Shown: positions 43,549 through 49,187 of the stretch, piece after piece
Position numbering within the stretch: the stretch's first letter is position 1
How the letters are laid out: each line of letters starts with the position of its first letter
Assembly (NCBI RefSeq): GCF_000378045.1
Contig: NZ_KB899093.1
Coordinates: forward strand, 62,001-126,000
DNA from: Marinobacterium rhizophilum DSM 18822
GTDB lineage: Bacteria > Pseudomonadota > Gammaproteobacteria > Pseudomonadales > Balneatricaceae
Direction of reading: 5' to 3'
Length of the DNA: 64,000 nucleotides
Program-made: the position numbers and the translations under genes
Notes under the pieces: generated by a model
What the model saw: only the letters and a program-made list of their open reading frames with translations
Database searches by the model: none
Told to the model about the DNA's origin: nothing

Positions 43549-44820
43549 TCAGTAGCGTGGAATCTTGCCGCTCCAGTCCGGCTGGTACTTTCTCATTTCG
43601 GCCACATCGTCGCGGGCGCGGATACCGCAGGTGAGATAATTCTGTGCCAGCACTGCCAGCGCTTCACGGTCCAGCTCCACACCCAGGCCGGGCTTGTCCG
43701 GTACCCGCACGGCGCCATTTTCAAACGCGATCTTGCCGCCGACAATGACTTCCTCTTCCTGCCAGGGGTAGTGGGTATCGCAGGCATACGACAGGTTGTC
43801 GATCGCCGCCGCCGCGTGGGTCATGGCCATCAGGCTGATGCCCAGGTGCGAGTTGGAGTGCATCGACAGGCCGATATTCCAGGTCTTGCAGACATAGGCC
43901 AGTTCCTGGGTCGCCTTGAGGCCGCCCCAGTAGTGGTGATCCGACAGGATGACCTGGACGGCATCGAGTTCAAGCGCTCGGGGCAGGTCAAAATTGCCGA
44001 TGACGCACATGTTGGTGGCCAGCGGAATGTCCGTGAGGGCGCTGACCTGGCCCATCGCCTCCTTGCCCGGCGCCGGATCTTCCAGGTACTGCAGCAGGTT
44101 GCCGTCAAATTGCGGCAGCAGGCGGGCGGTGGTTTCGACCGACCAGCCGCCGTTCGGGTCGATGCGCAGCGGGTGGTCCGGAAACGCCTGTTTCAGCGCC
44201 CGCAGCGCGGCAATCTCGGCCTCGGGCTCGAACACGCCGGCTTTGAGCTTGATGGAACGAAAACCGTACTGCTCGATCATCTTGCGTGCCTGCTCGACGA
44301 TGCCCTCGGGTGTCAGGGCTTCGCCCCAGCGGTCGACCCAGGGATCGTCACTGAAACGGTGGCGGTCGAACTTGTAGAACAGATAGGCGCTATAGTCGAC
44401 GCTGTCGCGGACCTTGCCACCCAGCAGGTCGCACACCGGACGGCCGGTGATCTTGCCCATCAGGTCCAGACAGGCGACTTCAAAGGCCGAAAAAATGCGC
44501 GGCACGGTTGTGGCACCCAGGGTGCCGGGTGCAATTTCCAGCCCGGACTTGGGGTCGGGCTGCTTGACGACCGCGGTAATCCTGTTGCGAATGGCATTGA
44601 GGTGAAAGACATCCATGCCGATGAGACTGGGGGCCACGGCCTGCAGCTGGCTGATGGTTTGCTCGTCGCCGTAGGACTCACCCAAACCATAGCGTCCATC
44701 GCGGGTCTTTACCTCGATAATGGTGCGCAGAGCCCAGGCTTCGTGCACGCCGTAGGCGTTCAGCAGCGGCGGATCACGAAAGGCGATGGGGGTAATCTCG
44801 ATGGATTCAATAAGGGACAT
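43549..44820 (-). CDS. Glucarate dehydratase-family enzyme (enolase superfamily)
   Basis: A 423-residue protein of the glucarate-dehydratase subgroup. Visible active-site elements: KxK (FRSIKLKAGVF, about residue 193), the metal ligand in LRIDPNGGW, then YLEDPAPGKE and ATNMCVIGN. The catalytic Asp/His arrangement SDHHYWGG and MHSNSHLGIS is present. Compared with the GudD at 56996 it is shorter and clearly distinct from the start (MSLIESIEITPIAFRDPPLLN). The substrate could be glucarate, an epimer or another hexarate. It lies beside a TRAP transporter in one direction, so it probably acts on the acid that TRAP system imports. Confidence 0.85.
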   Translation of the reverse strand: MSLIESIEITPIAFRDPPLLNAYGVHEAWALRTIIEVKTRDGRYGLGESYGDEQTISQLQAVAPSLIGMDVFHLNAIRNRITAVVKQPDPKSGLEIAPGTLGATTVPRIFSAFEVACLDLMGKITGRPVCDLLGGKVRDSVDYSAYLFYKFDRHRFSDDPWVDRWGEALTPEGIVEQARKMIEQYGFRSIKLKAGVFEPEAEIAALRALKQAFPDHPLRIDPNGGWSVETTARLLPQFDGNLLQYLEDPAPGKEAMGQVSALTDIPLATNMCVIGNFDLPRALELDAVQVILSDHHYWGGLKATQELAYVCKTWNIGLSMHSNSHLGISLMAMTHAAAAIDNLSYACDTHYPWQEEEVIVGGKIAFENGAVRVPDKPGLGVELDREALAVLAQNYLTCGIRARDDVAEMRKYQPDWSGKIPRY

Positions 44821-44928: not shown

Positions 44929-45051
44929 TCAGGCAAAGCCCGCCGCCAGCGTAAACATTGTCACGATAATCACGCCGCACAGCAGCAGCCCGGCAATCCA
45001 GGGCTTGCTGCCGTACAGATCGATATCTTTATGGGTGTCGCGACCGATCAT
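44929..45051 (-). CDS. 40-residue membrane microprotein behind the TRAP DctQM gene
   Basis: An open frame of 40 codons, ATG at 45051 and TGA at 44929-44931. AGGAGG (complement at 45060-45065) sits 8 bases ahead, two bases beyond the TRAP gene's stop codon. The protein has a polar N-terminus (MIGRDTHKDIDLYGSK) and one membrane helix at about residues 18-38 (residues include WIAGLLLCGVIIVTMF), ending LAAGFA. The very strong, ideally placed binding site and coupling to the TRAP gene support translation. I do not recognise the sequence; it may be a small TRAP accessory subunit, by analogy to other membrane microproteins. Confidence 0.78.
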   Translation of the reverse strand: MIGRDTHKDIDLYGSKPWIAGLLLCGVIIVTMFTLAAGFA

Positions 45052-45067
45052 GTTTGATACCTCCTGG

Positions 45068-47146
45068 TTAACTGCCCAGCGCTTCAGGCAACCACAGTGC
45101 TATGTTCGGGAATGTCATGACCAGAATCAGCCCGACGATCTGCAGTCCGATAAAGGGCAATACGGACAGGAATATTTCCTGCAGCGTCACGTCTTTGGGT
45201 GCCACCGATTTCAGCCAGAAGCAGGCCGGGCCAAAGGGCGGTGAGAGGAAATAGATCTGGATGTTGAGGACGTACAAAATGCCAAACCATATCTTCGCCT
45301 GGTCTTCTGTCAGCCCCAGTTCCGGCGCCAGCGTCATCACGACCGGCGCGAACACCGGCACGGTAATCAGTACGATGGCGATCCATTCCATGAAGGTGCC
45401 CAGTATCACCAGGATCAGCATCATCACCAGGATAATGCCGATGGCGGAGAGGCCAAGGTTCATGAACAGGCTGCGCATGAATTCGCCGCCGCCGACCAGG
45501 TTGAAGATGCCAACGAAGGACACGGCACCCAGCACCAGCCAGATGATGGTGCCCACCGTGGTCATGGTGCCGATCAACGAGGCCTTGAGCATCGGCCATT
45601 TGAATTCATGGCGCACGGCCGCAACCAGCATGGCCCCCAGCGCTCCGACCGCGGCCGCCTCGGTGACCGAGGCGATACCGCCATAGATCGATCCCATCAC
45701 GGCGCCAATCAGCAAAATGCTCAGCAGCACGGCGTTCATGCGGGCGCGCGACAACTGATTGCTGGTGCCGGTCTTGATCGCCACCTCTGCGGCGGTGGGT
45801 GCCAGCCCTGGGTTGAGGTGTACGCGTATCAGTACATAGGCGGTATAGAACAGCGCCAGCATCAGGCCGGGCAGGGCACCGGCCATGAACAGGTCACCGA
45901 TCGAGACCTCGGCCGACAGGCCGTAGACGATCATGATGATCGAGGGCGGAATCAGGGTCGCCAGTGCGCCCGAGGCGCAGATCAGACCGATGGTCATTTT
46001 GCGGTCGTAACCCAGGCGCAGCATCTGCGGCAGCGCGACCAGGCCGAGCATGACGATCTCGCCACCCATGACGCCGGACATGGCCGCCAGGATCACCGCC
46101 ACCACCACCGTTTGAACGGCCACTCCGCCGCGCAGGTTGCCGGCAAAGATCGACATTGCATCGAACAGGTCTTCGGCAATGCCGGCCTTTTCCAGTATCG
46201 AGGCCATCAGTACGAAAAACGGAATGGCAATCAGCGTGTAGTGCTCGAGCAGCCCGGCCGCATTCGCAGACACCAGGTAGAGACCGCGGGGGCCGAAGAA
46301 GGCGATCGCCATCAGCACCGAAACGACCAGGGTCACGATACCGAGCGGCATGCCGGTCATCATCAGCGCCACCAGTACCAGCACCATGATCAGCGAGACG
46401 CTGCCCAGACCGTAGGCGCGCATGTCCAGAACGGCACTGGGGTTTGCCGCCTCGCCCAGGGCGCTGAAATAGCTCGCGATGACACCGAAGACCGACTCCG
46501 GACCGGTGACAAAGGCGAGCAGGCCGATGACGAAATACAGCAGTATGGAGGTCCCCAGTACCGTCACGCATTTCCTGGCCAGCCTGGACTGGACATGGCG
46601 GTGCAGGTTGACGACAAGCTGTGCCAGGTAGAGCAGACCGCCAAGGGCGAGCAGCAGCTTGAGCATCATGGGCATTGGCGAATTGAATGCACTGCCGGTT
46701 CTGTCGACATGCTCCACGGCGGCATAGGCGCGCAGGGTTGCATCGGATAGCAGCAGGAACAGCGCCGCGATACCGACCAGCATGGCGAAGAGATCCAGCC
46801 GCCACTGCGCCCGGGCCGAGACGATATTGTGGATAACGGTAATGCCGATATGGCGCTGCTTCAGCGTGATGTAGCCGGATGACAGCATCCAGGCGGTCGC
46901 ACACAGTACCATGACGACCTCGAACGCCCACTGGGTGGGGGCGTTGAAAACATAGCGGGAGACCACTTCCCACAGGGTGGCCCCGGCGGCAACCAGGTAG
47001 ATCAGCGATATGCCAATACCGCTAAAGTGGCTGATATGATCGATTAACGTGTAGTTCGAGTAGGCGACCGATTTCTCGTGGTGAATCGGATCGTCCTCGG
47101 CCACCTCGATAATAGCGTCGCGAGTCAGGCTCTCGACTTGGGACAT
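45068..47146 (-). CDS. TRAP transporter, fused DctQ-DctM membrane protein
   Basis: A 692-residue inner-membrane protein joining the small (DctQ) and large (DctM) TRAP subunits. The N-terminal ~230 residues carry four helices plus conserved DctQ-like EVVSRYVFNAPTQWAFEVVMVLCATAWMLSSGYITLKQRHIGI. The rest, with SLIMVLVLVALMMTGMPLGI, GGEIVMLGLVALPQML, GALATLIPPSIIMIVYG and GTFMEWIAIVLITVPVFAP, is DctM. It couples sodium entry to uptake of the acid delivered by the DctP protein encoded upstream. Such QM fusions are known. It is separated from dctP by a 130-base gap with a strong hairpin. Confidence 0.95.
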   Translation of the reverse strand: MSQVESLTRDAIIEVAEDDPIHHEKSVAYSNYTLIDHISHFSGIGISLIYLVAAGATLWEVVSRYVFNAPTQWAFEVVMVLCATAWMLSSGYITLKQRHIGITVIHNIVSARAQWRLDLFAMLVGIAALFLLLSDATLRAYAAVEHVDRTGSAFNSPMPMMLKLLLALGGLLYLAQLVVNLHRHVQSRLARKCVTVLGTSILLYFVIGLLAFVTGPESVFGVIASYFSALGEAANPSAVLDMRAYGLGSVSLIMVLVLVALMMTGMPLGIVTLVVSVLMAIAFFGPRGLYLVSANAAGLLEHYTLIAIPFFVLMASILEKAGIAEDLFDAMSIFAGNLRGGVAVQTVVVAVILAAMSGVMGGEIVMLGLVALPQMLRLGYDRKMTIGLICASGALATLIPPSIIMIVYGLSAEVSIGDLFMAGALPGLMLALFYTAYVLIRVHLNPGLAPTAAEVAIKTGTSNQLSRARMNAVLLSILLIGAVMGSIYGGIASVTEAAAVGALGAMLVAAVRHEFKWPMLKASLIGTMTTVGTIIWLVLGAVSFVGIFNLVGGGEFMRSLFMNLGLSAIGIILVMMLILVILGTFMEWIAIVLITVPVFAPVVMTLAPELGLTEDQAKIWFGILYVLNIQIYFLSPPFGPACFWLKSVAPKDVTLQEIFLSVLPFIGLQIVGLILVMTFPNIALWLPEALGS

Positions 47147-47276: not shown

Positions 47277-48308
47277 CTACAGCAGGCCTTTGCTCTTCAT
47301 GAACTTGACGTGGGTTTCATAGGCTTCTTTCGCCAGCGGAGACGCTGCAGCAAAGGCTTCCCAGGACTGCTGGGCAATCTTGCGGAACTTGTCGCGCTCG
47401 CCCTGGGGCCAGTCGATGATGGTCAGCTTGCCGGCGGCCTTGTCGCGGGCGACCAGTTCCTTGTCCTTGGCATCCAGCACGACGCGGATGTCATCGTAGG
47501 CCGCGATGAACCACTCGCTCAGTGCCTGCTGTTCGGTGTTCGTCAGCTTGTTCCAGGCCAGGTCGGACACCGTGAACTGCATGAAGGGCATGGAGTGTAT
47601 GCCGGGGTAGATCGGAAACTTGGCCACCTTGTGCATGCCGCTGGCGTCATTATTGGCATAGGCCGAGCTGTCGGCGGCATCGATAACGCTTTGCTCCAGT
47701 GCCGAATACACCTCGGAACCCGGCAGGGATACCGGGGCCGCTCCGGCCCGCCTGAAGACATCGGCCGCCAGCCCTTCCGGCGTGCGGATCTTCAGCCCCT
47801 TTAGATCGTCCACACTGTTGATGGCCACCTTGGAGACAAAGGCTTCCCGCTTTTCGGAACTGCAGCCGATGACGTGCACACCCGGCTGATGTTCATTGAA
47901 TAACTTTTGCAGCAGCTCCTTGCCGCCGCCATGCATGCAAAAGTCCTGAATCTGCTCCGGCCGGTCGTAGCCGGCAATGAGATCCCCCATCAGCGCAAAG
48001 GCGGGATCCTTGCCTGAAAAGTAGCTCGGCGTGGTCAGGTCTCCATCCAGAATGCCCATGGCGACGGCTTCCGGCGTTTCCTTGTGCGGCACCACGGCGC
48101 CAACTGGCAGCAGTTCGATTTCCAGCGACCCGTTGGTCATTTCCTTCAGCTTGGGGATCCAGTTTTCATTCAGGTGGGCCAGGCTGATGTGGCTGGCACT
48201 GAAACTGGTCTGAATCTTGAGCGTGCGTGCCTGGGCGGTCACAGAAAACGCGAGGGACGCGGTCGCGGCCATGACTATGCCGGTGGTGAGTAGCTTTTTA
48301 AAATACAT
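47277..48308 (-). CDS. TRAP transporter periplasmic binding protein DctP
   Basis: A 343-residue binding protein. The start at 48308 (MYFKKLLTTGIVMAATASLAFSVTAQA) gives a clean signal peptide ending AQA-R; the upstream frame lacks one. Typical DctP features: TLKIQTSFSASHISLAHLNE, LKGLKIRTPEGLAADVFRRAGAAPVSLPGSEVYSALEQSVIDA (the conserved ligand-binding region with Arg) and the C-terminal WEAFAAASPLAKEAYETHVKFMKSKG. The ligand is likely a dicarboxylic sugar acid given the dehydratase gene in the same run. An upstream palindrome at 48367-48380 may control it. Confidence 0.95.
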   Translation of the reverse strand: MYFKKLLTTGIVMAATASLAFSVTAQARTLKIQTSFSASHISLAHLNENWIPKLKEMTNGSLEIELLPVGAVVPHKETPEAVAMGILDGDLTTPSYFSGKDPAFALMGDLIAGYDRPEQIQDFCMHGGGKELLQKLFNEHQPGVHVIGCSSEKREAFVSKVAINSVDDLKGLKIRTPEGLAADVFRRAGAAPVSLPGSEVYSALEQSVIDAADSSAYANNDASGMHKVAKFPIYPGIHSMPFMQFTVSDLAWNKLTNTEQQALSEWFIAAYDDIRVVLDAKDKELVARDKAAGKLTIIDWPQGERDKFRKIAQQSWEAFAAASPLAKEAYETHVKFMKSKGLL

Positions 48309-48366
48309 GCTGGAACTCCGATTTTCTTGTTCTTGGTGTTTGGATCTCAGATTGAACGACTGAAAT

Positions 48367-48380
48367 ACTAATATATTAGT
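48367..48380. promoter_or_regulatory. Perfect 14-bp palindrome upstream of dctP, operator candidate
   Basis: ACTAATATATTAGT is a perfect inverted repeat, 59 bases before the dctP start and 88 before the divergent GntR start. An A+T-rich symmetrical site in a divergent promoter region next to a GntR gene suggests a regulator-binding site. It could overlap a -10 box. Confidence 0.55.
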
Positions 48381-48467
48381 TGAAATTCGCAAGCCTATTT
48401 TGTAGTTTTGTCATCAGATCGGCGTTTGAGCTGATACCCAAAGCGTGTGTATAGGAGTGACCCCACC

Positions 48468-49187
48468 ATGAAACCGCTCGATGTGAGTCAGCTGTTGCGA
48501 CAGCATCAGAGCCAGGTGCCGGAAATGGCCAGATCCGCCGTCGATCGCGTGTATGAGGATCTGCACCGGCGTATTGTCAGCCTGGAGCTGCCACCGGATG
48601 CGACGCTGACGCGGGCGCAGTTGTGTGAGGATTATCGGGTCAGCCAGACGCCGGTTCGCGAGGCCTTGCAGCGGCTGGAACAGGCCGGTCTGGTGAAGAT
48701 ATATCCGCAATCTCGCACGGTGGTATCGCGCATCGACGTGACGCAGTTGAACGAAACCCAGTTTCTGCGTGAGGCGCTTGAAACCGAGGTGATACGCCGG
48801 TTGTCGCGGTTGCAGGATGAGGATCTGGTTGCCAGGCTCTCGGCCCTGGTCGACATGCAGGAGTTACTGGCTAAAGATACATCCCAGCTCAGCGCTTTTT
48901 ACCGGCTGGACGAGCTGTTTCATGAGCAGATGTTTTCCGCGGCGGGGCAGCTCGGTCTTTACTGGCTGGTGCAGAGCAAGTCCGGTCACATGGCTAGGCT
49001 GCGACATCTTGACCTGCCCAGCGAGGGCAAGATGCGTGATGTCATCGAAGATCATCGCCGGATTGTCGACGCCATTGCATCGGGTGTGCCGGAACAGGCG
49101 ACCGAGGCTATGCGCCATCATCTGGAAGGAACATTGTCCCGTTACCAGCGCCTGCGTGAGGCCTATCCGAACTATTTCGCAGACTGA
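48468..49187 (+). CDS. FCD-domain GntR-family regulator
   Basis: A 239-residue regulator from ATG 48468, which has AGGAG 10 bases upstream; a possible GTG at 48447 lacks one. The winged helix is LTRAQLCEDYRVSQTPVREALQRLEQAGLVKIYPQSRTVV. The C-terminal FCD domain contains ARLSALVDMQE, LDELFHEQMFSAAGQ and DHRRIVDAIASGVPEQATEAMRHHLEGTLSRY, where the conserved Asp/His residues bind a metal and carboxylate ligand. It diverges from the dctP-dctQM operon and probably regulates it in response to a sugar acid or breakdown product. Confidence 0.92.
   Translation: MKPLDVSQLLRQHQSQVPEMARSAVDRVYEDLHRRIVSLELPPDATLTRAQLCEDYRVSQTPVREALQRLEQAGLVKIYPQSRTVVSRIDVTQLNETQFLREALETEVIRRLSRLQDEDLVARLSALVDMQELLAKDTSQLSAFYRLDELFHEQMFSAAGQLGLYWLVQSKSGHMARLRHLDLPSEGKMRDVIEDHRRIVDAIASGVPEQATEAMRHHLEGTLSRYQRLREAYPNYFAD

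Follow-up and report, generated by a model that had tools for sequence, protein, structure and literature searches.

A conserved single-helix microprotein linked to one clade of DctP-type TRAP transporters

We analysed a stretch of 64,000 nucleotides from Marinobacterium rhizophilum DSM 18822 (contig NZ_KB899093.1, positions 62,001-126,000, forward strand), hereafter the window. It contains a gene cluster for a TRAP transporter, and a short open reading frame directly follows the permease gene. Coordinates are those of the window:

43549..44820, minus strand: enolase-superfamily dehydratase, glucarate-dehydratase-like (PF13378, 8.4e-56); the same gene occupies the same place in another locus, L017
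44840-44905: strong inverted repeat in the intergenic region of the microprotein and dehydratase genes
44929..45051, minus strand: 40-aa microprotein with a predicted single membrane helix, residues 15-39 (open reading frame; homologues in 79 of 80 DctQM loci; signature of purifying selection)
45060..45065, minus strand: Shine-Dalgarno sequence AGGAGG, 8 bases 5' of the microprotein ATG and 2 bases past the dctQM stop
45068..47146, minus strand: dctQM, fused TRAP small and large permease, 692 aa (PF04290, PF06808; the model of a Marinomonas orthologue resembles HiSiaQM)
47277..48392, minus strand, start codon not settled: dctP, TRAP substrate-binding protein (PF03480, 2.9e-40; PDB 4pe3, 4.9e-83)
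48447..49187, plus strand: divergent GntR/FCD regulator (PF07729, PF00392); the same kind of gene occupies the same place in L017

The frame at 44929-45051 starts with ATG, has 40 codons, ends with a TGA stop, and encodes MIGRDTHKDIDLYGSKPWIAGLLLCGVIIVTMFTLAAGFA. Read 5' to 3', the junction consists of the dctQM stop TAA, CC, AGGAGG, 8 bases, and the ATG; 16 bases separate the dctQM stop from the ATG, which begins at the 17th base. A preliminary description of this DNA had reported the same 40-codon frame, ribosome binding site, and spacing behind a fused DctQM gene, and both the arrangement and the identity of the upstream gene (PF04290, 5.7e-17; PF06808, 1e-70) were confirmed.

The DctP, DctQ, and DctM parts of a TRAP transporter are all present in the window, each above the cut-off of its Pfam model (PF03480, PF04290, and PF06808), and the solved chain closest in sequence to the window DctP is 4pe3. 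The dehydratase gene is probably in the same operon as the TRAP genes. The encoded protein matches TIGR03247 at 1.6e-76, yet the score is far under the cut-off of this glucarate dehydratase model. A further clue to the cargo comes from Pseudoruegeria (L063), where a protein passes the cut-off for L-arabinonate dehydratase. Judged from the neighbouring genes, the transporter likely imports sugar acids or related hydroxy acids, and the divergent GntR/FCD gene is the probable regulator of the operon. The 110-base region around the inverted repeat has a folding energy of -40 kcal/mol (z -2.0; 8 of 200 shuffled sequences fold as well), and the repeat may form a hairpin that stabilises or attenuates the mRNA within the operon. 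Full-length matches to the window DctQM are few among the 116 genomes of its family (84% identity in G009, 59% in G002, and 42% in G134), and copies 70-80% identical to it occur in many marine Alphaproteobacteria. This distribution suggests that the operon may have been acquired horizontally.

A single-sequence search of these 116 genomes detected the microprotein in two of them, the window's own and one other, in which it is 70% identical and embedded in the same gene order. An alignment of the DctQM proteins from both genomes was used as the query against one genome per species, and the best 80 of 171 confirmed stretches, chosen by the permease only, were analysed. We found a homologue of the microprotein in 79 of these 80 DctQM loci. 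In 46 loci, an open reading frame of 39-41 residues with the same sequence pattern lies directly 3' of dctQM, and its start falls between 4 bases ahead of and 42 bases past the dctQM stop. The remaining 33 loci encode the microprotein on the opposite strand, upstream of dctQM and directly before dctP. The profile used for detection was built from 43 dctQM-adjacent copies and the window copy and searched over six frames; it recovered three more dctQM-adjacent copies and all 33 divergent copies, which are outside the profile that detected them and nonetheless score E values of 3e-16 to 1e-10. The one locus without the microprotein (L092) sits at the edge of a contig: only about 166 bases precede the permease match, so that its upstream side is out of sight. 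Together with the window copy, the set comprises 80 copies, which correspond to 60 distinct protein sequences, since many SAR116 genomes are near-identical.

The divergent arrangement, with microprotein and dctP on one strand and dctQM on the other, is found in SAR116 and some other Alphaproteobacteria (L106, L114, and 31 more). In all 33 of these loci, the next open reading frame starts between 20 bases ahead of and 50 bases past the microprotein stop and resembles a secreted DctP; it is DctP by Pfam (PF03480) in the two that were checked. As 28 of the 33 are titled SAR116, the relocation perhaps reflects only one or few events. The retention of the sequence pattern at another position of the cluster clearly speaks for a role of the protein itself. 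A four-base Shine-Dalgarno-like match precedes the start in all 80 copies, window included, as counted with a lenient pattern and no shuffled control; for this count, longer SAR116 frames were taken to start at the GTG or TTG that gives a 40-residue product.

Differences between the microprotein coding sequences concentrate at third codon positions. Nucleotide differences of 5-35% were seen in 414 of 2556 pairs of distinct coding sequences, and pN is lower than pS in every one of these 414 (median pN/pS 0.31); the pairs are not independent, so these counts do not amount to a formal test. When the differences of ten pairs were placed at random, none of 2000 trials had as few amino-acid changes as observed in seven pairs, and 15 to 86 of 2000 trials did so in the remaining three, all of them close pairs. 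The window copy and the second copy of its family differ at 33 nucleotides and 12 amino acids, compared with a mean of 20.3 amino-acid changes under random placement. The preliminary description had named, as grounds for giving up the frame, its loss in relatives or substitutions free of codon bias; we looked for both and found the frame in 79 of the 80 loci and pN below pS in 414 of the 414 pairs. By these comparisons, the frame is under purifying selection and is a genuine protein-coding gene.

The linkage to TRAP permeases also emerged from searches that were blind to gene neighbourhood. In 398 genomes of the phylum, all eight short-frame profile matches at E values up to 0.002 adjoin a TRAP permease; they come from seven genomes, the window's own included, and further weak short-frame matches exist at E values of at least 0.017. 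Eleven of 12 matches at E values up to 1e-4 in 385 alphaproteobacterial genomes (four of the 12 repeat matches of the 398-genome search) likewise adjoin one. The exception (G1049, E value 2e-5) has no TRAP permease in the stretch examined. This 45-residue, single-helix-like open reading frame (L174, 1456-1593; MLEEDPNDPMPDRMNIWTTIGGYGAGALIVFLMFYLALPATSSLN) is located directly 5' of a gene of the beta-eliminating lyase family; it may be unrelated and possibly represents another small-protein family. The sole match above noise in 244 genomes of the window's order was the window's own copy. On plasmids, a consensus sequence gave four matches (two with E values of 0.5-1), all beside TRAP permease genes. 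Profile matches within frames of at least 138 aa were dropped as unrelated, and those examined had no TRAP permease in their stretch.

Unfused systems have the microprotein, too. It is found behind separate dctQ and dctM genes, e.g., in G711 (MNIDNGSEPKNYEFGHWPEIVGVVITLGVLAFLFGYAEGML), and G781 has a second microprotein copy behind separate dctQ and dctM. Most copies share a [YF]GxWP motif at the mouth of the helix. The gene 3' of the microprotein varies (enolase type, IlvD/Edd type, alpha/beta hydrolase, or DctP), whereas the TRAP permease is constant. Similarly, the neighbouring regulator is of the GntR/FCD type in the window and Sulfitobacter and of the LysR type in Thalassospira, and the microprotein is retained.

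On a tree of 51 DctM sequences, all 33 microprotein-bearing permeases fall into one clade and none of the 18 sequences outside it has the microprotein (branch support 100/99). Two of the 33 clade members (L049 and L047, both from G002) were assigned as carriers by hand on weaker evidence: L049 has a diverged 45-residue open reading frame that resembles that of Marinovum algicola (11-13 bits), and L047 offers no more than a weak candidate (9-11 bits), located in front of dctP like the copy of its sister Sulfitobacter dubius. A first tree that did not include these hand labels had the microprotein in 40 of 42 rows inside the clade and in none of 28 outside. Nine of the 33 clade rows were first found via the microprotein and are thus not blind; L191, L193, L194, and the UR115 plasmid counterpart of L170 also turned up in the search with DctM alone. 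Of eight plasmid permeases found by DctM alone, six have the microprotein and the two that do not fall outside the clade; two of the six carriers are weak by profile and rest partly on position (L196, 18.7 bits; L195, 13.5 bits). We did not find the microprotein with the fused permease of G134 (L048) or with the plasmid-encoded DctM of Skermanella and Azospirillum (L197 and L198), all of which are outside the clade.

Permeases scoring at most 525 with the clade permease profile were scanned independently of the known sequences. Behind dctM, with a start from 25 bases before to 80 bases after its stop, none of 38 such permeases has a hydrophobic open reading frame of 28-80 aa, and a profile scan of the same 38 stretches, covering about 1.5 kb on each side, found no microprotein; a copy before a distant dctP is beyond the reach of both scans. 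In the profile scan, L055, whose microprotein frame sits inside a long open frame removed by the length filter, was set to present by hand on the strength of the 80-locus search. All 27 of these non-carriers that were placed on the first tree are outside the clade, and most other TRAP permeases examined do without the microprotein. The carriers include many marine Alphaproteobacteria, several Gammaproteobacteria, and one record titled Burkholderiales. On the tree of 51 DctM sequences, the microprotein marks one permease clade, in which fused and separate Q and M proteins carry it alike. A diverged sub-branch lacks the YGxWP motif (L196, 4245-4379, and the open reading frame behind dctM in L049). 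Both frames start at the dctM stop, and the next gene is of the dihydroxyacid dehydratase type (annotated in L196 and recognised by eye in L049).

The microprotein of the window matches no family in Pfam or NCBIfam at E values up to 0.1. None of 39 members has a match above a curated cut-off in these libraries; sporadic matches involve one to three members each, with a best E value of 0.01. Five divergent members matched no Pfam family, and a profile search of the PDB with the microprotein family returned no matches. The CydX model TIGR02106 was reached by only one of the 39 members (E value 0.1), which does not place the family with CydX. Among the matches listed in a search of the open-access literature, preprints being outside its scope, no TRAP microprotein is described, and the words TRAP, DctM, and tripartite are absent from the main text of a paper (PMC10903887) on the discovery of small membrane proteins. 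The earlier designation of the frame as undescribed thus holds within Pfam, NCBIfam, the PDB, and the open-access literature searched: this is a real, conserved TRAP-linked microprotein family that has no name in the libraries searched. The accompanying remark that gene finders can miss frames this short holds only in part. Three plasmid records annotate the microprotein or a diverged relative as a hypothetical protein (Acuticoccus, WP_309199684.1; Sulfitobacter, WP_276521414.1; and Marinovum, AKP00048.1, the diverged form), whereas in a fourth, from Thalassospira marina, the microprotein does not appear in the gene table, which is incomplete.

The membrane helix of the preliminary description is supported by structure prediction. 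AlphaFold2, run with 51 rows, predicts two helices separated by a break at G14, a short one at residues 7-13 and a confident one at residues 15-39, with mean confidence values of 98 for residues 21-30 and 90 for residues 31-40. The positions best conserved after M1 in the 60 distinct sequences are G14, G21, F33, A36, M32, Y13, and W18. Helix positions 18, 21, 25, 28/29, 32, and 36 line up on a single side, and the moment of conservation is larger than with shuffled columns (p 0.006-0.014 across four segment choices); F33, although among the best conserved residues, is off this face. Such a mostly one-sided pattern in a lone helix points to a partner helix, against which the microprotein would pack. 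Lysine and arginine average 1.75 in the 17 N-terminal residues versus 0.05 in the last six, which weakly favours an N-in orientation, yet this remains uncertain given that the polar head is net acidic.

We also modelled the DctQM of Marinomonas, read through its stop into the microprotein, and AlphaFold2 returned a structure of moderate confidence (mean pLDDT 72). The permease part of this model, which stands in for the window protein as its orthologue, has the TRAP/SiaQM fold: it aligns with HiSiaQM (PDB: 8thj) over 610 residues with a Z score of 36.8 and also matches PpSiaQM and IseQM, with Z scores of 35-37 over the SiaQM and IseQM structures. The alignments with the listed TRAP chains end at model residues 687-694, short of the microprotein, which begins at residue 699; they barely test the other parts of the chain, and we did not count the model as evidence for docking of the helix.

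We propose that the microprotein serves one clade of DctP-type TRAP transporters as a dedicated accessory subunit, a reading to which we assign a probability of about 0.72 from comparisons of sequences and gene order. The preliminary description had already raised the idea of a TRAP accessory subunit, for which tight linkage, movement within the cluster, and confinement to one permease clade now provide good support; that the protein is bound to the transporter and functional there is likely. According to this proposal, the microprotein would be made together with the permease, presumably through translational coupling, and would insert as a single helix, perhaps N-in, with its polar YGxWP head on the cytoplasmic side. 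The conserved face (W18, G21, 25, 28/29, M32, and A36) would pack against the membrane part of the permease, for which the most likely docking site is the scaffold made up of Q and the part of M that does not move. For PpSiaQM, Q is proposed to extend the scaffold so that the transporter can function as a monomer, and activity depends on lipids (PMC9971032). By analogy with KdpF and AcrZ and their transporters, the docked helix may stabilise the QM assembly or tune the elevator cycle. A stronger version, for which we see about even chances, is that the clade is obligately four-component, with a subunit of about 40 residues that arose once at its base, independently of the Q-M fusion, and is required for assembly or the elevator cycle.

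Other explanations account for parts of these observations. The microprotein could be regulatory, binding the permease transiently to inhibit or degrade it or to signal the transport state to a regulator in the manner of SgrT or MgrB, without being a standing subunit. Its single-helix size and conserved polar head are compatible with this, and there are known small transporter regulators, SgrT among them (PMC7267776). However, a start within -4 to +42 bases of the dctQM stop in 46 loci suits a partner that is made together with the permease, and the transcription regulator next door changes between loci whereas the microprotein stays; we consider a regulatory role unlikely, although it is the strongest of the rivals. 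Much less probable is an independent membrane protein that just shares the cluster and works for the neighbouring sugar-acid enzyme or, more generally, for the envelope. The microprotein gene does separate dctQM from a dehydratase gene, of the enolase type in the window and of the IlvD/Edd type in Pseudoruegeria, but the following gene, unlike the TRAP permease, is not the same in all loci, and the presence of the microprotein tracks the permease clade.

Two further explanations were rejected. Translation of the frame, rather than its product, might matter, e.g., through translational coupling as reported for cbrX, and the close spacing to dctQM, the Shine-Dalgarno-like sites, and the precedent of a coupling open reading frame (PMC9100948) would agree with such a cis-acting role. 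The dominance of silent changes indicates conservation of the amino-acid sequence beyond that of an open frame alone, and the sequence pattern is the same behind dctQM or before dctP, which leaves a role purely in cis very improbable. A chance frame that yields no product would fit the short length and the lack of a family match, but its probability is negligible in the face of homologues in 79 of the 80 loci, purifying selection, and a Shine-Dalgarno-like site in 80 of 80 copies; here, the conservation is decisive.

TRAP transporters are named and modelled as three-part systems, and both structural studies and reconstitutions treat P, Q, and M as sufficient. The tripartite importers of this clade probably have a fourth, overlooked part; if they do, reconstitutions of these transporters may miss a component. 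Carriers and TRAP systems that do without the microprotein would then offer a direct test of how a microprotein tunes a binding-protein-dependent elevator transporter. As SAR116 and Roseobacter-type marine bacteria are among the carriers, the microprotein may also bear on the marine uptake of dissolved organic acids.

Several known systems resemble the proposed subunit. KdpF, AcrZ, and CydX are, like the microprotein, about 30-50 residues long with one membrane helix, and KdpF and CydX are encoded alongside their partners. The combination of a single membrane helix and strict linkage to one transporter, which characterises KdpF- and AcrZ-like proteins, is also found here (predicted helix at residues 15-39; 79 of the 80 loci). 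KdpF raises the activity of KdpFABC, and AcrZ modulates AcrB allosterically (PMC7267776). The microprotein differs from all three in that its partner would be a TRAP QM permease, in that it has no convincing sequence match to them, and in that its binding is inferred. CcmD of CcmABC, another small single-helix protein of a transporter complex (PMC10903887), belongs to an ABC-type heme system and has an N-out topology; we liken it to the microprotein by description only.

Among TRAP systems, the window has P, Q, and M in common with DctPQM, SiaPQM, and IseQM, and the permease model fits the SiaQM and IseQM structures. These transporters are described as having three components, whereas a fourth is proposed for the window's clade. 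HiSiaQM itself has an extra single helix, the fusion helix, which is packed on Q and links Q and M (PMC10942642). A role of the microprotein as a replacement for this helix was rejected, since the window permease is already fused and the microprotein also accompanies unfused Q and M; the candidate subunit is thus found with both forms of the permease.
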